A stretch of DNA of 64,000 nucleotides from Sulfurimonas sp. (GCF_026991475.1 NZ_JALXBK010000047.1:97443-161442), one strand, 5' to 3'. Shown: positions 48,145 to 63,780, counted from the stretch's first letter. Made by a program: numbers and translations. The notes: a model not told the origin generated them from the sequence alone.

Positions 48145-48516
48145 ATGCAATTTTTAGATGAAGATATTTATGATGCTGTAGAGAATTACATTCCAAAAGT
48201 AAGTGAGTATGTAAATTCTCACGGCGGAGGGATTGAACTTTTAGGGGCAAAAGATGGTGTTGTTTACATCACTCTTACAGGTGCTTGTGGTGGTTGTTCT
48301 ATGAGTTTAATGACTACAAAAATGGTTGTGCAAAAAAAACTACGTGAGCTTATTCACCCAGAACTTCAAGTTGTTAATGTCGATGGAACTCCTGAGAATG
48401 TTATGCCGCAGGATGCCTACACAGGAAAAACAACTACAAATGAAGAAAAAGATGAAACTGCTCATGAAGAAAAACATGGCATGCTAGATAACATAAAACA
48501 CATAGTAGGTCTTTAA
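48145..48516 (+). CDS. NifU-like C-terminal domain Fe-S scaffold protein
   Basis: GGGIELLGAKDGVVYITLTGACGGCSMSLMTTK. Confidence 0.85.
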   Translation: MQFLDEDIYDAVENYIPKVSEYVNSHGGGIELLGAKDGVVYITLTGACGGCSMSLMTTKMVVQKKLRELIHPELQVVNVDGTPENVMPQDAYTGKTTTNEEKDETAHEEKHGMLDNIKHIVGL

Positions 48517-48517
48517 G

Positions 48518-49114
48518 ATGCTTGTTGATTATGCAAACAAAGAGCTCACACAAAAGTACCAACTTATGGCTCAGACCATTATTCCAAGACCTATTGCCTG
48601 GATAGTCACTCAAAATGAAGAGGGGCTTCTTAACATTGCACCTTTTAGCTACTTTATGGGGTTAAGTTCTGAACCTGCCACTATGATGGTAAGCATTGGG
48701 CATAAAAGTGATGGCAGCCAAAAAGACACACTTAAAAACCTGCGTGAAACAAAAAAATGTACCATTTGTATGGTTGATGAGGCACATCTTGAAGCGATGC
48801 ACTTTAGCTCTAAAGAGCTTGGGGCAAATGAGAGTGAAGCCACTGCGTTTAACATTGAGACAAAAGAGGTTGTAGAGGGTTTTCCTCCTATGGTTGCAGG
48901 TGTTCCTAGTGCATTTTTTTGTGAATTTTATCAAGAGATAGAGTTAAAAAGTTCAAAAACTATTCCTCTCGTTGTCGAGATAAAAGCACAATTTATTGAT
49001 GATAAAATCATAAGTGATAAAGAGAGAATTACACTTGATTATGCACCTCTTGCACGAGTTGGAAAAAGCTATGCCCTTCTTAGTAAAAACATTACACCAC
49101 CAACTATAAAATAG
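48518..49114 (+). CDS. Flavin reductase-like domain protein
   Basis: TIIPRPIAWIVTQNEEGLLNIAPFSYF. Confidence 0.85.
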   Translation: MLVDYANKELTQKYQLMAQTIIPRPIAWIVTQNEEGLLNIAPFSYFMGLSSEPATMMVSIGHKSDGSQKDTLKNLRETKKCTICMVDEAHLEAMHFSSKELGANESEATAFNIETKEVVEGFPPMVAGVPSAFFCEFYQEIELKSSKTIPLVVEIKAQFIDDKIISDKERITLDYAPLARVGKSYALLSKNITPPTIK

Positions 49115-53522: not shown

Positions 53523-53789
53523 ATGTATAGATGGAATGAAGAAAAAAATGAGTTATTATTATCTCAGAGAGGCGTTAGTTTTAATGATGTTCTCTATGAA
53601 CTAGAAAACAATGGAGTTATAGATAATTATAAACATCCAAATATTGAGAAATATCCAAATCAATATATTTATGTTATTTCTTTAAAAGGCTATATTCACT
53701 ATGTACCATATGTAAAAAATGACGATTATATATTTCTAAAAAATATAATACCAAGTAGAAAGTTAAATAAACAGTATAAAGGAGTTTAG
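53523..53789 (+). CDS. BrnT-like type II toxin
   Basis: MYRWNEEKNELLLSQRGVSFNDVLYEL...FLKNIIPSRKLNK, similar in layout to BrnT RNases. Confidence 0.75.
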   Translation: MYRWNEEKNELLLSQRGVSFNDVLYELENNGVIDNYKHPNIEKYPNQYIYVISLKGYIHYVPYVKNDDYIFLKNIIPSRKLNKQYKGV

Positions 53790-53790
53790 T

Positions 53791-54060
53791 ATGAATTATT
53801 CAAATGAAGAATTAGAGCTATTGAATGACATAGAAAGTGGTAATATAAAGAGTGTACCATTTGATAATGATAAAATAAAACAAATGGCAAAAGAGACAAG
53901 ACAATACAACCAAGAAAAGAAACAAATTAGCATAAATCTTAAAAGATCAGATTTAGATATGATAAAACAAAGAGCAGATAATATTGGAATATCTTACCAA
54001 AATATTATACAAGCGTTGATACATAATTATACAAGCAATAAAATAAGTATAAATATTTAA
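53791..54060 (+). CDS. CopG/BrnA-like antitoxin
   Basis: Follows toxin after 1 nt; C-terminal RHH-like ISINLKRSDLDMIKQRADNIGISYQNIIQALIHNY. Confidence 0.75.
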   Translation: MNYSNEELELLNDIESGNIKSVPFDNDKIKQMAKETRQYNQEKKQISINLKRSDLDMIKQRADNIGISYQNIIQALIHNYTSNKISINI

Positions 54061-55330: not shown

Positions 55331-55448
55331 CTCCTAATTCAGTATTTTTACCTTATTCAAACCTTTTGAAATGATATTAGTCAATAATTTTTCAAAAAAA
55401 TTATGTCATACTTTAAACTATTACATATAATTGAAAACAAGGTCAAAA

Positions 55449-56567
55449 ATGATAAAAATTATTTTTCTTACTCTATTTGTCACACTTTTGTCGGCAAGCT
55501 ATCGTACAAATAAATCGTGCAGTGAGTGTCATCAACAAATTTTCCAAGAGTATCAAAGTTCTTACCACTCTAAGACATATTTCAACGATAAGCTACATAG
55601 AAAAGTTGCCAACCTAGCAGCAAGTGAAGATCATTATAATTGTGCAACATGTCATATGCCATCGGCTCAAAACCAAAAAGAGTTAGCTAATGGTACTCTA
55701 AAACCTGATTCATCAAAACAGAGAGAAAAAGATGCTATTAGTTGTTTTTATTGTCATCAGATTGCCTATGTAAAAAAAGCCCATCTTAAAAACAAAATAA
55801 TTCTTACCAAACAAATAGCAAATTATAAACCAACTTTATACGGCTCTTTAAAAAATCCTGACGAGAGTGATAAACACACAATGACACATAGCCCTATTTA
55901 TGACAAATATGTCTGTTCTGGCTGTCATTCACATAAAAGAAACACCCATGGTACGCTAATCTTTGATGCGATGAATGGCAAGATGGACAGTAAAGAGTGT
56001 ATTAAATGTCATATGCCTCTTGTAGCTGGAAAAGTTGAAAAAATGAACAAAAAAATTCGTACGCAACATCATGACCATAGCTTTAATGGCATACATAATA
56101 TGAGCATGAGAAAAAAAGGGATAGAGTTAAATATTCATGTAAAGAATAAAAAAATTGAAGTGAGCATTAAAAATAAAATGCCTCATCCACTTATCATCCA
56201 AGTTGCAAGGTTAAATTATTTACAACTTAATATAAAAAGAGATGGCAAAATCATCTGGCAAAATTATAAAAAATCTCCTACTGAGGACAAACAGGGTATA
56301 TTTAAAATTGATTTTTTAGGGGCTGATGGAAAACCTGTTGTTATACCTGCTTTTGCATACAAAAGAGGGTTTGTAAACAATATAAAAGCAAAAGAGACAA
56401 AAAAATTGATTTATAATGTTCCAGACTTGAAAGATGGTGATATAATCACAGCTTCTATGTATGTGATATTAGAAAAACCTAGCTGCTGGAAAACTCTAAA
56501 TTTACAAGATTCCAGTTTAAAAACACCAATGCTTTTAAAAAGTAAAATATATACAATAGAGAAATAA
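55449..56567 (+). CDS. Periplasmic pentaheme c-type cytochrome (cytochrome c554-like)
   Basis: Five CXXCH motifs (CSECH, CATCH, CFYCH, CSGCH, CIKCH) after a signal peptide; ATG at 55449. Confidence 0.8.
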   Translation: MIKIIFLTLFVTLLSASYRTNKSCSECHQQIFQEYQSSYHSKTYFNDKLHRKVANLAASEDHYNCATCHMPSAQNQKELANGTLKPDSSKQREKDAISCFYCHQIAYVKKAHLKNKIILTKQIANYKPTLYGSLKNPDESDKHTMTHSPIYDKYVCSGCHSHKRNTHGTLIFDAMNGKMDSKECIKCHMPLVAGKVEKMNKKIRTQHHDHSFNGIHNMSMRKKGIELNIHVKNKKIEVSIKNKMPHPLIIQVARLNYLQLNIKRDGKIIWQNYKKSPTEDKQGIFKIDFLGADGKPVVIPAFAYKRGFVNNIKAKETKKLIYNVPDLKDGDIITASMYVILEKPSCWKTLNLQDSSLKTPMLLKSKIYTIEK

Positions 56568-56577
56568 CAAATTAATT

Positions 56578-56853
56578 TTAACCTATTCGTATCGCCTTAG
56601 TATGCAAAAGAGCATCTGCAATTTTTCCCCTAGCAGACTCTATAAGGCGAGAGAATGTGGTGCGAGAGATGCCCATTTTATCTGCACACTCTTGCTGGTA
56701 AAGCCCTTCATAGTCTGCTAAACGCAGTGCTTCCATCTCATCTTCACGCAGTGCGACTCTTTCAAGTTCACTGCGTTTAACACCACATGGCTTAAAGCAG
56801 ATATGGCTATGATCTGCATCTATATTTCTCTGTATTGGTTTTCTACCTCTCAT
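56578..56853 (-). CDS. DUF134-family HTH protein
   Basis: MRGRKP...LREDEMEALRLADYEGLYQQECADKMGISRTTFSRLIESARGKIADAL. Confidence 0.9.
   Translation of the reverse strand: MRGRKPIQRNIDADHSHICFKPCGVKRSELERVALREDEMEALRLADYEGLYQQECADKMGISRTTFSRLIESARGKIADALLHTKAIRIG
56719..56779. repeat. 11-bp perfect inverted pair of the iterated motif inside the DUF134 gene
   Basis: TAAACGCAGTG (56719-56729) and CACTGCGTTTA (56769-56779). Confidence 0.9.
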
Positions 56854-56868
56854 ACAAACCCCCTGCGT

Positions 56869-57243
56869 TTAGATATTGCCATCTAAAAAGTTACGCACTA
56901 CCTCATCAGCTGTTGCACCATGTTTTTGACGTATTTTTTTTACTTTTAAGCCAATGGACTCTAATGCTTCTTTCATATTTTCACCCACAGCTTGCACTAA
57001 AATAATGTCACAATTTTTAAGCGCTTCTACATCTTTTCTATGTGAATTCGTATGCTCTTTATGTCCCATCTCAGAGTGGTCATGTTCTTCATTTTCTCTA
57101 TGAGCATGATGCCCACCATCATGATGTTTGTTTGGCACTACTTCTACAAATTTATCATCATCATAAATCGCAAAGTATGCACTTTGTCCTGTTTTTTTTA
57201 CTATTGTCTTTTTATCTTCATCTACTGCTAAAACTATTTTCAT
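56869..57243 (-). CDS. NifX/NifB-type dinitrogenase iron-molybdenum cofactor-binding family protein with His-rich insertion
   Basis: MKIVLAVDEDKKTIVKKTGQSAYFAIYD...CDIILVQAVGENMKEALESIGLKV; HHDGGHHAHRENEEHDHSEMGHKEHTNSH. Confidence 0.8.
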   Translation of the reverse strand: MKIVLAVDEDKKTIVKKTGQSAYFAIYDDDKFVEVVPNKHHDGGHHAHRENEEHDHSEMGHKEHTNSHRKDVEALKNCDIILVQAVGENMKEALESIGLKVKKIRQKHGATADEVVRNFLDGNI

Positions 57244-57959
57244 TTTTTATCCTTTTGTGATTTTAAAGAGAGTATCCACTGAGCAATTGTTTTAACATCT
57301 GCGTCTCTTAACTTTTTAAACGCAGGCATCACTGCACCTTTAGAGCTTGCATATTTTTTCTTACTACCATTTTTAATGCTATGCATCAAAACTGCTAATG
57401 AGTTTCCTTTTCTCTTTGCAATATCTCTAAATGCAGGTCCAACGATTTTTTTATCTACTTTATGACAAGAGAGACACCCATTTTTAAGCACCAATCGCTC
57501 ACCTTTTGGCATTGCATTTAGTTTGTTTTCTAAAAGTTGTGCTTCATTCAGATTTTTCTCTGTAAAATGTGAGAACATATACTCTGCTATAGCTTGAAGC
57601 TCATCTTGTGTTACTTTTCCTTTTTGTGAAGGCATAATTCCATAAGTTTTCAGACTTGCTTTATCACAAAATGATTTACTCGCACTTGGATTTATAACAT
57701 AATCTTTCACAAACGCAATCGCCTTTGGAATTCGCTGACTCTCATCTTCTGTTTTTATGAAATGTACTACATGAAAAGCAACTGCCATCATCGCTGGTGC
57801 TTTTTCATCTTTAAAAGTCTTAGGTGGCAGGTCAATATTATGACACTTCGTGCACTTTTGCTCTAAAAGTTTTTTTCCGTCTAAATTATTTACCTTTTTA
57901 TCTTGTGAACAGCCACTAAAGAGTAATAATAGAACCGATGTTAAAAATATTATTCTCAT
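57240..57959 (-). CDS. Diheme c-type cytochrome lipoprotein
   Basis: Lipobox LLFSGCS; CTKCH and CLSCH heme motifs. Confidence 0.85.
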   Translation of the reverse strand: MRIIFLTSVLLLLFSGCSQDKKVNNLDGKKLLEQKCTKCHNIDLPPKTFKDEKAPAMMAVAFHVVHFIKTEDESQRIPKAIAFVKDYVINPSASKSFCDKASLKTYGIMPSQKGKVTQDELQAIAEYMFSHFTEKNLNEAQLLENKLNAMPKGERLVLKNGCLSCHKVDKKIVGPAFRDIAKRKGNSLAVLMHSIKNGSKKKYASSKGAVMPAFKKLRDADVKTIAQWILSLKSQKDKK

Positions 57960-59281
57960 TTTTCATCCTTTTTTAGTAATTTTCTAATACTCTCTTCATC
58001 TGTTAAACTCTCATCATATTTAACAACTACAACATGTTCTGTATCATTAATATACCACTCTATAACACCCTCTTTAGTGTGCAATTCTTGATGTTTAGCA
58101 TGGTCTGTATCATCTAAATGAATGTAAGCAATTTTATTTTTTGCAGGATTATCAAGAGTAAAAAGCATAACAGCCCAAGCAATACATAAAACAATAATTC
58201 CATAAGAGACAACACTCAAACTTGTTATATCAAGAAGCATACCACCAATAAAACCGCCAATAAAAGTTCCAAAGTAACCAAAGCTATTGAAAATTCCAAG
58301 AACTTTACCTCTTTGATGAACTTTTGCATATTTTGAAGCTAAAGATTGCAATATAGGTTCTTGAAGATTAAAACCGATAAAAAAGATAATAACACCTGCA
58401 ACAAATGCCATATATGTATGACTTAGTCCAATAATGAGATATGCAATAGCGAGAAAAAGAACACCAAGAAGTAAAATAAGTTTATACTTCCCTTTTTTCT
58501 CTGCTATCATAGCAGCAGGTCCCATTGCTAAAATTCCAACTATCATAGATGGAAGGTAAATTTTATAGAGTTCACTTTCGCTCCATCCATATGTCTTAAT
58601 CAAAACAATAGGAATAATCATAAATGCAAAAGTCATAAAACCTTTTACTAGCATATTTGTTATGTTCATCTTCATGAGATTTTTATTTTCAAACATTTTA
58701 AATTTATCACTTTCTAAATATGTATGCTTAATGACTGGAGGATCCGGAACATATTTCACTAAAACATAAATAGATGCAAGTGCTAAAAATGTAACAATAA
58801 AAAACAGAGTAGGAACACCACCACAATAAGCAGCAATAGTAGGTCCAGCAATCATAGAGAGTGCAAATGCCATCCCAATACTTCCACCCATTATAGCCAT
58901 TGCTTTACCACGCTCTTCCTCTTTAACTACATCACTAATAGTCGCAGTAATTACAGAACCAATAGCACCAGCACCTTGAAGCAATCGCCCAATAAGCAAG
59001 GTATAAACATCTGTCGCCAAACCAGCAACCAAAGAACCAATAGCAAAGATAATAAGACCAAAAATAATCGTCTTTTTTCTCCCTATTTTATCACTGATTG
59101 TTCCAAATGGAACCTGAAAGAGCATCTGCGTTATCGCATATCCACCGATGATAATACCAACCATAGTATGACTGGAGTTTGGCATATCTAAAGCATAGAC
59201 AGAAAGCACTGGAAGGACTATAAAAAGCCCAAACATTCTTAACGAAATAATAAGATTTAGAGGTAATATTTTTTTAAACAT
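57956..59281 (-). CDS. MFS transporter with C-terminal cytoplasmic domain (YajR-like architecture)
   Basis: GTISDKIGRKKTIIFGL; 12-TM pattern plus a C-terminal domain VIEWYINDTEHVVVVKYDESLTDEESIRKLL. Confidence 0.85.
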   Translation of the reverse strand: MFKKILPLNLIISLRMFGLFIVLPVLSVYALDMPNSSHTMVGIIIGGYAITQMLFQVPFGTISDKIGRKKTIIFGLIIFAIGSLVAGLATDVYTLLIGRLLQGAGAIGSVITATISDVVKEEERGKAMAIMGGSIGMAFALSMIAGPTIAAYCGGVPTLFFIVTFLALASIYVLVKYVPDPPVIKHTYLESDKFKMFENKNLMKMNITNMLVKGFMTFAFMIIPIVLIKTYGWSESELYKIYLPSMIVGILAMGPAAMIAEKKGKYKLILLLGVLFLAIAYLIIGLSHTYMAFVAGVIIFFIGFNLQEPILQSLASKYAKVHQRGKVLGIFNSFGYFGTFIGGFIGGMLLDITSLSVVSYGIIVLCIAWAVMLFTLDNPAKNKIAYIHLDDTDHAKHQELHTKEGVIEWYINDTEHVVVVKYDESLTDEESIRKLLKKDEK

Positions 59282-60449
59282 TCATTTTTCCTTTTTGTAT
59301 TGTAGCATCCAAAACAGATGCAAAACCAATGGCAATATATGCCAAAACTGCAGCGATTATGTAAGTAGTTTTCAAACCTATAGCATCACCAAAAACTCCC
59401 ATAGCCAGCACTACAATAGAACTTATTGAGAAGTTTATACTCATATAGACACTGTTTATAAATGTCGGCATTTTTGTATCTAACTCATGAATAACAGAGA
59501 GCATAATAGGACCATTTGCAAACATAAAAATTCCCAAAAGTGCTAAAAGTGGAAACATTGTGTAGGGTGTTGTACTAAAGAGAAAAGCACTCATAGTAAG
59601 CGCTGCCCCACTTGACATGATGACAAGCGTTTTTTGTCTTCCGATTTTATCTGAAATAGTTCCCGAGGCAAATGTGCCAATAACCCCAAAGAACTGCAAA
59701 ACTGCCAAAGCACTACTTGCTACCCACAAAGAGAAACCCTCTTGTGTGAGATAAATAGCCAGATAAAGCGTTACCGCCATCTTCATAGCAGACTGAAAAA
59801 ACATAAAACCGCTCATAACACCAAAGAGAGGTAAAAAGCGTTTTACTTCACGCAGGGCATCGCCCTTCTCTCTCTTTTTTGTAAACTTTGTCTGAGTAAA
59901 GTTAAAATTTCTCAGTTTATAGTACAAAATCAGCGAAGCGATAATTCCAAAAGGCATAAGTCTCCAAGTACCCTCAAGTCCCCACAAAGAGACACCACCA
60001 GTGATTATCAAAGGACCAAGTGTACGCGCAAGCTCTCCACCAACCATAAAGTAACTCATTCCCCGTCCAAGTTTATCGCCAGAAGATGCTTTTATCATCC
60101 CGGGCGAGGGAATATGAAAGAGTGTTGAAGTAATCCCTGCAATAAAAAGTAAAATGAGTAACATCGCATAAGAGTTAGCCACGCCCAAGAGTGACATCAC
60201 AACAGCAGTAAACGCAGGAGATAAAATCACAAAATAACGAGCATCACTCCTCTCAGCCAAAAGACCAAAGAAAGGATTTAAAAGAGAAGGAATTTTTCTA
60301 GCAATATCTAAAAAAGCACTCATAACAAGGCTCATACCAAGCTTATCTATAAGCAGTGGCAAAATAGGTGCTAAAAAAGCGGAGTAAGTATCTTGTACTA
60401 AATGTGCTACAGAGACCGTAGCAATGATATTATTATCTTTTTTTTGCAA
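59274..60449 (-). CDS. MFS transporter (fosmidomycin-resistance-like subgroup)
   Basis: VAHLVQDTYSAFLAPILPLLIDKLGMS; GTISDKIGRQKTLVIMS. Confidence 0.85.
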   Translation of the reverse strand: MQKKDNNIIATVSVAHLVQDTYSAFLAPILPLLIDKLGMSLVMSAFLDIARKIPSLLNPFFGLLAERSDARYFVILSPAFTAVVMSLLGVANSYAMLLILLFIAGITSTLFHIPSPGMIKASSGDKLGRGMSYFMVGGELARTLGPLIITGGVSLWGLEGTWRLMPFGIIASLILYYKLRNFNFTQTKFTKKREKGDALREVKRFLPLFGVMSGFMFFQSAMKMAVTLYLAIYLTQEGFSLWVASSALAVLQFFGVIGTFASGTISDKIGRQKTLVIMSSGAALTMSAFLFSTTPYTMFPLLALLGIFMFANGPIMLSVIHELDTKMPTFINSVYMSINFSISSIVVLAMGVFGDAIGLKTTYIIAAVLAYIAIGFASVLDATIQKGKMNV

Positions 60450-60481
60450 TTTAGCATTATCCTTGAAAACATATTACTGAA

Positions 60482-60510
60482 ATTATATCGGTCATATGTT
60501 CACAAGTCAA
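60482..60510 (-). promoter_or_regulatory. Sigma70 promoter with palindromic operator in spacer, upstream of MFS operon
   Basis: Reverse strand TTGACT-TGTGAACATATGACCGA-TATAAT (17-bp spacer); start codon at 60449. Confidence 0.75.
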
Positions 60511-61168
60511 TAGAAAGAGTAAATAATTCAATTGCCCTGTCACCACTACAGTGTGTAGGTCTTGCACACTTAACACCCATCTCTTTAAGCGCATCTATTG
60601 TCTGTAATATTTTTTCATCACTACTTCTTAAAAGATGAAAACCACCCTCAACGCAGCGAATATCTCTACCAATAATCTCTCGTGCAACTTTTGTAATATT
60701 TTCAACTCCAAAGTGTCCACAACCCGTTATGAGCGTACTCTCTTGTTTATCTATTATGAGAGACTGCTCGGGAGTTTCATCTCCTAAAACTCCAGTTGTA
60801 TAGAGATTTGCAAAAAGTTTTTGTGGTTTTTTCCCACAAACTACGACCTCTTTCACCAAAGTTTTCAGATCTTTAATCAAATGTTTTGAGAGTGAAGAGG
60901 GAACAAAGAGTGTAAGATTTGGATTAAGCTCAATAATGCTGTCTAAACCTCCAATATGATCCCAATGAGAATGTGTAATAAAAAGATACTCTATTTCCTT
61001 CACATCAACATTAAGTTGCTGCATATTTTTTAAAAGAACACGCCCATTGCTGCCTGTGTCAAAAAGAAGTTTATACTCCTCTAGGTAAGCACTAAATCCC
61101 CAAAGAGAGTGGCATGTATCACATACTTTATAGTTATCAAAAAGAATTTTCATGATTTTTATCTCCAT
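60500..61168 (-). CDS. MBL-fold metallohydrolase
   Basis: LFITHSHWDHIGGL, TGCGHFGVENI, PTHCSGDRA; likely start MKILFDNYK at 61153. Confidence 0.85.
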   Translation of the reverse strand: MEIKIMKILFDNYKVCDTCHSLWGFSAYLEEYKLLFDTGSNGRVLLKNMQQLNVDVKEIEYLFITHSHWDHIGGLDSIIELNPNLTLFVPSSLSKHLIKDLKTLVKEVVVCGKKPQKLFANLYTTGVLGDETPEQSLIIDKQESTLITGCGHFGVENITKVAREIIGRDIRCVEGGFHLLRSSDEKILQTIDALKEMGVKCARPTHCSGDRAIELFTLSIDL

Positions 61169-62405
61169 ATTTTTTTAACCCTAAACTTATAACTAAGCCT
61201 GCAAACAGAAGTCCAATAGTTAGAAAGTATATAAGCTCATAACTCCCAAAACTTTTCAGTAACAGACCACCAAGAATAGGAAAAAAAAGTCCAAATGAAC
61301 TGAGATTTGTTTGCACCGCAGTATAAATAGGGCGTTTTTCTTCTGGTGCTATCTCTATAATGAGATTCATTCCACTATTTCCAAAACCATCAAGAGCTAT
61401 GCCATAGAGAAAAAAGACAAGAGCATATATATAGCTATTATTCGCAAAAAGTGCAGCTGTAAACGCAGCTATCATAAAAATAAAACTCAAATAGAGCATC
61501 TTTTCATAATTGCTTATTTGTCTCCATAACAAAGAGCTTCCCACTATGCTTCCAAACATCTGTACCATTATGAATCCACCTAAAACCCAACCGGTCAAAG
61601 TAACACTGTTTTTTGCTTCTAAAATGACAAAAGGAATGGAGAGATAACAGGCAAAACTTAAAAAAATGGCTAAAGTCTGCTGCTGTAGTCGCTTGTCATC
61701 TTTAAGCGTGGCAAAGGCATTTTTTATAAAGAGCCCAAAATGTTTCTCTTTTTCTTGTACATTCTCTTTTAATGGTTCATCATCAATAGTACCAAAAATA
61801 AAAAAGCCAATACCCATAATAAAACTACTGACAATGAAAAGATAGGCATAATTAAGTGGCGCTTGAAAATGGCTCAAAACATATCCCGCAACACCACCAC
61901 TAACGATGGAAGCAATAGAACCCGCAACCTGACGATTTGCCATGGTCTTTCCACGATACGCTTTAGAAAAAAGTTTTGCCTGAAGTTCTTTAAAATAGAT
62001 TGCACCAAAACCAGCAGAGAGGGAAAAAGCAAAAAGCCCTAATCCTATAAAAGTAAGGGTAAGTGTTTTATGAGCATCTCCGATAAAAAAAATACTCAAA
62101 CCAATACTAAACCAAGAGAGCCAACGAAAAAAAAATACTCTTCGTAAATAAGGCAAAACTTTTTTATAACTCTGTGCATGAAACGCAGCATAAAGCTGTG
62201 TGAGTATTGCCCCTCCACGCAACAAAGAGACAAAGAGACCAACAATAAGAGCACTATTACTAAAGTGCTCAATTATAAGCGGCAATACAGTCGAAGGCTC
62301 TGCTATGGTAATAGCTAAAGAGAGAAAAAATGCATGAGCTACATTTTTATAATTATTGGTCGGATTGTCCTGTTCATATAACTGACTCATTCTCTTGTCA
62401 TTCAA
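61137..62405 (-). CDS. MFS transporter
   Basis: 12-TM pattern; SKAYRGKTMANRQVAGSIASIVSGGVAGYVLSHF. Confidence 0.8.
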   Translation of the reverse strand: MNDKRMSQLYEQDNPTNNYKNVAHAFFLSLAITIAEPSTVLPLIIEHFSNSALIVGLFVSLLRGGAILTQLYAAFHAQSYKKVLPYLRRVFFFRWLSWFSIGLSIFFIGDAHKTLTLTFIGLGLFAFSLSAGFGAIYFKELQAKLFSKAYRGKTMANRQVAGSIASIVSGGVAGYVLSHFQAPLNYAYLFIVSSFIMGIGFFIFGTIDDEPLKENVQEKEKHFGLFIKNAFATLKDDKRLQQQTLAIFLSFACYLSIPFVILEAKNSVTLTGWVLGGFIMVQMFGSIVGSSLLWRQISNYEKMLYLSFIFMIAAFTAALFANNSYIYALVFFLYGIALDGFGNSGMNLIIEIAPEEKRPIYTAVQTNLSSFGLFFPILGGLLLKSFGSYELIYFLTIGLLFAGLVISLGLKKYGDKNHENSF

Positions 62406-62429
62406 TTTTTACTCTCTCACTAATTTAGT

Positions 62430-62966
62430 TTATTTTTCTTGATTCTGTTTCATTGTTTCAATAACATCATCTACACTCTGCCCTTGAGCGGCTACTGGCG
62501 TTATACCAAGAGCAAGCAAATTATCTTTCACACCTTTACCAAACTCATAAGAGACAAAAATATCTACACCATTTGCTTTAAGAAATCTAGGAATTTCAGT
62601 ACCAACATGAAGTCCTCTATTTCCTTCACTATCTTTTTCTATTACAATATTTTCATCTTTAATCTTTTTCATAATTGGATTTTCAATCATCTCTAAAAAT
62701 TCACCCTCTGGAAGTGAATAAAAAACTATATTTTTTGCAAGCCCAATATGCTTTGCAAGACGCTCTCTACCATTTGTCATAAATGCCACTTTCATTTGTA
62801 ATCCTTCCCTATTATTTTCATTTTTTGAAAAGATGCCTTGGAAATTTCTTCTTCCAAAACCTCTACCACCACCAAAACTTCCATTGTCACCAAAGTTTCT
62901 TCCTCTACTAAGGCCTCTGTGTTTTCTACCAAAACCTTGACCTTTTCCTCTTGTAAACTCTCTCAT
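62430..62966 (-). CDS. NifX/NifB-like cofactor-binding family protein with N-terminal Gly/Arg-rich segment
   Basis: MKVAFMTNGRERLAKHIGLAKNIVFYSLP...VDIFVSYEFGKGVKDNLLALGITPVAAQGQSVDDVI; N-terminal RGKGQGFGRKHRGLSRGRNFG...GGGRGFGRRNF. Confidence 0.75.
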   Translation of the reverse strand: MREFTRGKGQGFGRKHRGLSRGRNFGDNGSFGGGRGFGRRNFQGIFSKNENNREGLQMKVAFMTNGRERLAKHIGLAKNIVFYSLPEGEFLEMIENPIMKKIKDENIVIEKDSEGNRGLHVGTEIPRFLKANGVDIFVSYEFGKGVKDNLLALGITPVAAQGQSVDDVIETMKQNQEK

Positions 62967-62993
62967 TTTAAATCCTTAAAATTTAGTTTATAT

Positions 62994-63037
62994 GCACATA
63001 TGTTCAGAATTATAACAAACATATGTTCATTTGTCAA
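62994..63037 (-). promoter_or_regulatory. Consensus sigma70 promoter with two operator copies, upstream of NifX-like/MFS/MBL operon
   Basis: Reverse strand TTGACA-AATGAACATATGTTTGT-TATAAT (17-bp spacer), then TCTGAACATATGTGC over the expected +1. Confidence 0.8.
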
Positions 63038-63154
63038 ATTTTTTAAGAGATTGAAAAATTAAAAAAAAGGGAAATTTATAAAAAAGTTTAAATTAGGATT
63101 GAAGTTCATCTCAAAATTTTAAGATGAACTGAGTGTAGAAATATGATGAAGTAT

Positions 63155-63718
63155 TTATTTTATGATTGTAACAACAAACGCACCTCTAAAGTCGCCTTTT
63201 TTATATCCAACTGCTTTGTCATTTGGATATTTCGCTTTAATGAGTTTATATGCCTCTGGATCTCTTGTTTTTGCATCACCGTGACAAGTTAAACATACAC
63301 CTTTGTTGATGAAAATTGGTTTATAAACTTTATAAGAGTTTTTCGCTATCTCTTTTACTATCATTTTAGGTACTGTTTTGTGTGCAGCTACATCACTCTG
63401 AATCTGCTCAAGCACTTTTGCTTCATCTGCCGTTGGTTTGTCTGCTGGGTTTCTATACTTAAGTGAAACTCTTTTTACACTTACACCTTTTGGATAGCTC
63501 GCATTTACCTTTTTAGCGATGCCCGATGCCTCATCAAGACAAAAACCTGCCGCTTGAACTGGTCCACCTGCTTTCATATTTTGTTTCATATGTGACTTTA
63601 AAGCTCCACCCATTTTCATAATGGCACTCTTAGCCTCTTGTTTTATCTCTTTATTTGTAGCAGCACTCAAAAGTGAAGCACTCGCCAGTAACATAATCGG
63701 CAATACGATTCTTTTCAT
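63155..63718 (-). CDS. Monoheme c-type cytochrome, DUF3365-like
   Basis: Signal peptide; KRVSLKYRNPADKPTADE; single CLTCH heme motif. Confidence 0.85.
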   Translation of the reverse strand: MKRIVLPIMLLASASLLSAATNKEIKQEAKSAIMKMGGALKSHMKQNMKAGGPVQAAGFCLDEASGIAKKVNASYPKGVSVKRVSLKYRNPADKPTADEAKVLEQIQSDVAAHKTVPKMIVKEIAKNSYKVYKPIFINKGVCLTCHGDAKTRDPEAYKLIKAKYPNDKAVGYKKGDFRGAFVVTIIK

Positions 63719-63751
63719 TTTTCTTCCTTTTATAGTTTTATAATATACAAA

Positions 63752-63780
63752 ATTATATCGGACATATGTTCACAAGTCAA
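63752..63780 (-). promoter_or_regulatory. Sigma70 promoter with palindromic operator in spacer, upstream of DUF3365-like cytochrome
   Basis: Reverse strand TTGACT-TGTGAACATATGTCCGA-TATAAT (17-bp spacer); nearly identical to 60482-60510. Confidence 0.8.

Follow-up and report, generated by a model that had tools for sequence, protein, structure and literature searches.

The window analysed here is a stretch of 64,000 nucleotides from Sulfurimonas sp., a sulfur-oxidising-type marine bacterium, and its end coincides with the end of the contig (64000). It carries three transcription units on the minus strand (Table 1): operon (a), in the order MFS-MFS-diheme cytochrome c-NifX-like-DUF134; operon (b), NifX-like-MFS-MBL; and gene (c), encoding a Tll0287-like cytochrome. 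Profile searches bore out the gene calls of the initial annotation, with matches to PF02001, PF02579 (Nitro_FeMo-Co, two proteins), MFS_1 (three proteins), MBL, a diheme cytochrome c, and PF11845. The overlapping or abutting ORFs that it had described for operon (a) were also found; the successive overlaps measure 8, 4, and 4 bp, and DUF134 follows after a gap of 15 bp.

Table 1. Genes, promoters, and operators of the three transcription units. Coordinates are counted from the first letter of the window.
Feature	Position	Strand	Detail
DUF134, proposed repressor	56578..56853	-	91 aa; helix 3 GISRTTFSR; motif CFKPC; PF02001 76.3 bits vs gathering threshold 27
NifX-like protein, His-rich insert	56869..57243	-	PF02579 36.2 bits
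Diheme cytochrome c	57240..57959	-	PF00034 and two CxxCH motifs
MFS transporter 1	57956..59281	-	PF07690 199.7 bits
MFS transporter 2, operon (a) first gene	59274..60449	-	PF07690 105.7 bits
MBL-fold hydrolase, operon (b) last gene	60500..61168	-	PF00753 42.8 bits
MFS transporter 3	61137..62405	-	PF07690 80.7 bits
NifX-like protein, RG-rich N-terminus, operon (b) first gene	62430..62966	-	PF02579 38.4 bits
Tll0287-like (DUF3365) cytochrome, gene (c)	63155..63718	-	PF11845 94.5 bits
Promoter a	60482..60510	-	TTGACT-17-TATAAT
Operator a, inside promoter spacer	60489..60502	-	TGAACATATGACCG
Promoter b	63009..63037	-	TTGACA-17-TATAAT
Operator b, inside promoter spacer	63016..63029	-	TGAACATATGTTTG
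Second operator of operon (b)	62993..63006	-	TGAACATATGTGCA; 23 bp from operator b
Promoter c	63752..63780	-	TTGACT-17-TATAAT
Operator c, inside promoter spacer	63759..63772	-	TGAACATATGTCCG

The DUF134 protein was the sole HTH match among the operon proteins. It covers positions 4–88 of the 98 in the PF02001 profile, and the strongest of its secondary matches are with sigma region 4. The initial annotation had listed this gene but left the regulator unnamed; judging from the sequence, the last gene of operon (a) is most likely that regulator. The NifX-like proteins may plausibly handle some other metal or redox cofactor.

Operator-promoters in the window

The combined operator-promoter pattern TTGACNNNTGAACATATGNNNNNTATAAT matched with 0 mismatches at all three promoters described in the initial annotation, with no further match in the window at up to 3 mismatches and none in 100 shuffles. 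These are also the top three sigma-70-type promoters of the region (scores of 12, 11, and 11 out of 12). The three operator copies originally listed stand, and to these we add a fourth copy of the operator motif TGAACATATG, absent from the earlier list, at a position shortly after the -10 box of promoter b. At each site in the window one arm has the full consensus TGAACAT and the opposite arm is degenerate. The start of promoter (a) overlaps the final codons of the MBL gene of operon (b).

Sites a and c have 28 of the 29 core bases in common, as might be expected if the three promoters were recent local duplicates without shared control. The likeness is confined to the operator-promoter, however, because the flanks of the two sites are unrelated (10/40 bases shared upstream and 15/40 downstream). 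Diverged genomes and other phyla, moreover, keep the operator before the same kinds of gene, and this conservation mostly refutes duplication, which we consider hardly credible.

The initial annotation had proposed a search of the genome for further operators. A pattern search of the assembly (2.07 Mb in 131 contigs, 99.96% complete) found 12 occurrences of TGAACATATG, only the four copies in the window being at promoters, and no TGAACATATG in a -35/-10 frame outside the window. The pattern TTGACN{2,5}TGAACATATG occurred three times, always in the window. Promoter-framed TGAACATATG is thus restricted to the window, and the regulon therefore appears to be local in this assembly.

Some other features of the window were recorded alongside. 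A multiheme cytochrome gene (55431-56567, plus strand) is convergent with operon (a) and has no exact TGAACATATG before it. By eye, two small adjoining ORFs (53523-54060) form a candidate BrnT/BrnA-type toxin-antitoxin pair. Nfu-like and flavin-reductase-like genes often lie beside the DUF134 locus in Sulfurimonas (L054:9156-9513, L053:347-938), and the window ORFs at 48145-49114 resemble them, both again by eye.

Operators near DUF134 in relatives and in other phyla

A scan of 84,980 species yielded 62 loci with relatives of the window DUF134. In Campylobacterota, TGAACATATG is mostly completed to TGAACATATGTTC(A/G); it stands before the DUF134 gene, at ~20-70 bp, or else before the operon that contains this gene, often surrounded by a TTGAC-...-TATAAT frame, and in Nautiliaceae, at a protein identity of 61%, the operator also adjoins DUF134. 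Tandem operators in relatives are mostly spaced by 23 or 33 bp. Where DUF134 is not the first gene, the operator was found before MFS2 (L042, L044, L051, L052, L064, L069, and L269), before NifX-like genes (L050, L052-L056, and L065), or before the DUF3365 cytochrome (L047-L049), and the first genes behind it are of the same three kinds as in the window. The initial annotation had held that loss of the operators from relatives that keep the genes would speak against a regulon. Since the operators are kept before MFS2, NifX-like, and Tll0287-like genes, that outcome did not arise, and the proposal of an operator-repressor regulon is well supported.

The genomes compared throughout are mostly metagenome bins. 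Across genomes of the family, promoter-framed sites track the presence of DUF134, occurring in 4/22 genomes with the gene and 1/129 without it (p=0.0016); MFS2, present in 2/151, is too rare for a presence/absence test. The 14-mer perfect palindrome was rejected as a stand-alone marker. In a family scan it matched one DUF134 promoter but also coding regions and TetR genes, and on its own it is therefore not diagnostic. Matches with relaxed TTGAC spacing (N2, N5) lay inside coding sequence and were rejected.

DUF134 (UPF0251) is found in both bacteria and archaea, and conjugative plasmids of Enterobacteriaceae carry it too. Upstream of DUF134, a palindrome centred on CATATG also occurs in Spirochaetota, Altiarchaeota (archaea), Omnitrophota, the phylum of genome G153, Rhodocyclaceae, and enterobacterial plasmids, with different arms (TGAGCATATGCYCA, TGCCCATATGGGCA, TTAGCATATGCTAA, TTGACATATGTCAA, TGTGCATATGCACA, and ATRGCATATGCCAA). 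In a non-redundant set of 78 DUF134 genes (<75% protein identity), 38 carry the palindrome, compared with 3/359 upstream regions of further ORFs in these loci, used as controls (Fisher p=2.6e-29). When all 64 palindromic hexamer cores were compared upstream of DUF134, CATATG was found 38 times and the runner-up 5 times. Looser palindrome calling drew in chance sites, and these were excluded from the counts. For about half of the 78 genes, the 150 bp upstream contain no palindrome of this kind; some of them are located deep within operons, and the others lack an explanation.

On plasmids, separate NifX genes lie behind DUF134. Matches to DUF134 were found in 188 plasmid records, and DUF134-NifX pairs occur on plasmids of Klebsiella, Citrobacter, Providencia, and Morganella (L172, L173, L233, and L234), often together with a SLAC1 channel or a PaaI thioesterase.

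Helix 3 of DUF134 and the operator arms

When 39 diverged DUF134 proteins were aligned with their own operators, the bases of the operator arm covaried with the residues at the start of helix 3 (numbered from the window protein as GISR64-T65-T-F-S68-R69). In 90 cases, Arg69 goes with G at arm base 2 (57 pure, 7 mixed), and Asn, Ala, or Lys at this position with T (24/26). At arm base 4, Thr, Pro, or Ser65 goes with A (54/54), Gln with G (20/20), Gly with G (5/5), and Arg with C (9/10). The rule for bases 2 and 4 was fixed before a first held-out set was read, and all 11 palindromes of this set fit it at both positions.

Further subfamilies refined these readings. Omnitrophota proteins with Gln in place of the otherwise invariant Arg64 (SQQ for SRQ) have the operator TGAGTA-NN-TACTCA, in which C5 is changed to T5; within the SQQ subfamily, 24/28 match it at 12/14 positions or better, compared with 0.08 expected from shuffled sequences. 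Arm base 5, paired with residue 64, is a third readable position of the code. A second held-out set comprised 40 genes, for the most part paralogs that share a genome; here the readings at bases 2 and 5 were upheld where the palindrome was clear. The claim that residue 65 alone sets base 4 was rejected, because seven Omnitrophota proteins with an [AP][ST]FGR helix have G there; given this failure, residues 65 and 68 seem to set base 4 together, a reading that is post hoc. In a tree test of independent pairs, no base-2 pair changed in the wrong direction; well-supported independent changes are few in these short proteins, and the result is not significant.

For the window protein, R64, T65, S68, and R69 predict TGNACA (TGNACATATG), which is the sequence found, with one arm at full consensus. 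As expected of an autoregulator, a TGAACATATG that fits its own helix lies at promoter (a) of its own unit. The operator is thus, as far as its sequence tells, very probably recognised by the DUF134 protein encoded in the same gene set. If the code is true, R69N would move the preference to TTAACATATGTTAA, R64Q to T at arm position 5, and T65Q combined with S68G to TGAGCATATGCTCA, and DUF134 targets could be predicted from protein sequence.

The covariation also bears on whether the sites are occupied by a different protein, such as a TetR-family regulator from another part of the genome, while DUF134 is co-regulated and does no more than sense or fine-tune. The perfect palindrome TGAACATATGTTCA does lie upstream of a TetR-type gene in three relatives that lack DUF134 (L118, L119, and L123, the last with two copies), and TetR-type proteins are present in the window genome. 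These, however, are only 26-37% identical to the TetR of the relatives, mainly across the HTH, and a TetR regulator was rejected here since the window genome has no close homologue of it. By contrast, the operator tracks DUF134 across phyla and varies with helix 3, even among paralogs of one genome: G154, G488, G512, G555, G581, G596, and G645 each encode two or three DUF134 paralogs whose operators fit their own helices, which argues strongly against one third protein binding all of them. We therefore regard a different regulator as very unlikely. The TetR genes behind TGAACATATGTTCA in the DUF134-less relatives perhaps reflect convergent use of the operator.

A proposed DUF134 repressor and its relation to known systems

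Taken as a whole, it is highly probable, on sequence grounds, that DUF134 represses operons (a) and (b) and gene (c) through TGAACATATGTTCA palindromes until a signal relieves repression. We infer that DUF134 would act as a sigma-region-4-like HTH repressor, probably as a dimer, and would bind imperfect TGAACATATGTTCA palindromes in the -35/-10 spacers of three strong promoters, thereby blocking RNA polymerase at its own operon (a), at operon (b), and at gene (c). A signal, probably sensed through a NifX-fold partner or through the CFKPC cysteines of DUF134, would then lead to production of the MFS exporters, the NifX-like cofactor binders, the MBL hydrolase, and the two periplasmic cytochromes.

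The predicted DUF134 fold (mean pLDDT 87 in a 90-residue model) has helices at residues 36-47, 52-59, and 63-83, and the code residues sit where the long third helix begins. A sequence search of the PDB found no DUF134 structure. The nearest Foldseek matches of the HTH, all weak (E-values of 0.05 or more), were sigma region 4 and the DeoR DNA-binding domain. This resemblance to sigma region 4 would suit a protein that binds the sites as an activator or anti-sigma-like modulator rather than as a repressor. Each site, however, is located within the spacer or a short way past the -10 box of a near-consensus promoter, a type that needs no activator, so an activating or modulating DUF134 is very unlikely. 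With operators in the spacer of such promoters, repression is much more likely than any other mode of action for DUF134.

Fusions of PF02579 domains to DUF134 occur in four groups, namely the family of the window, Spirochaetota, the phylum of G153, and Selenomonas, and such fusions in several phyla suggest a NifX-fold sensor. The CFKPC motif is present in 63 complete stand-alone DUF134 proteins, compared with 0/23 long or fused ones. We infer that the signal would be carried by the NifX fold or, where this is absent, by the cysteine pair. In other genomes, the operator also stands before operons with MinD-type ferredoxin ATPases, TrmO, SLAC1 anion channels, DUF302, a DsbD-like protein, and cytochrome bd. 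Redox or metal-sulfur stress would be our guess at the common theme of these operons, and metal-sulfur or redox state our guess at the signal. Two cydAB loci were also noted: in G073 an operator-promoter, TTGACTTTTGAACATATGTGCGTTATTAT, lies ~490 bp upstream of a cydAB (cytochrome bd) operon that is distant from the DUF134 gene (L270:4880-5370), and in L276 NifX-NifX-cydAB runs divergently from a DUF134-NifX fusion gene.

More tentatively, and with somewhat less than even confidence, DUF134 and the NifX fold may form a bacterial and archaeal sensory system, in which NifX, separate or fused, senses a metal-sulfur cluster or redox state and controls DUF134 repressors that carry the helix-3 code, with exporters, cytochromes, SLAC1 channels, and cytochrome bd as targets in Campylobacterota. 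If DUF134 does recognise the operator, the family would acquire a function for the first time, with a DNA-recognition code that can be read in part, and the poorly understood NifX/ORP-like proteins would be linked to gene control. The operator, the recognition code, and the conserved NifX-fold partner together make DUF134 function testable.

Among known systems, sigma region 4 and the B. subtilis DeoR DNA-binding domain have an HTH that superposes on the DUF134 model (0.5-0.8 A over 39-49 residues), but they show no close sequence relation to it, and the window DUF134, at 91 residues, lacks its own effector domain. ArsR/SmtB metalloregulators are small local repressors that bind an AT-rich palindrome over the promoters of transporter genes, and the mode of action proposed for DUF134 is similar. 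A profile search found no HTH_5 match in the window DUF134, and an ArsR regulator was rejected, as none scored above the Pfam cut-off anywhere in the genome. The window NifX-like proteins share the PF02579 domain with nitrogenase NifX but, as the initial annotation had supposed, are not nitrogenase NifX (20.3 and 21.6 bits against the TIGR02663 equivalog cut-off of 112).

The ORP clusters of Desulfovibrio combine NifX-fold ORP proteins with MinD/Mrp-type ferredoxin ATPases. They have the NifX fold in common with the window, whose operons differ in carrying MFS pumps, cytochromes, and an MBL hydrolase. No MinD/Mrp-type ATPase was found in the window operons; in relatives it is present under the same operator, which precedes NifX-MinD-MinD-NifX operons in L055, L065, and L271. 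In the open-access literature, as far as titles and the opening lines of abstracts tell, no study of DUF134 function was found, and UPF0251 is mentioned in a mutation table only. Because of this, and because the Desulfovibrio orp operons are reported to be under sigma54 control (PMC6345978) and not that of DUF134, we rate DUF134 as a new regulator family among the known small HTH repressors.
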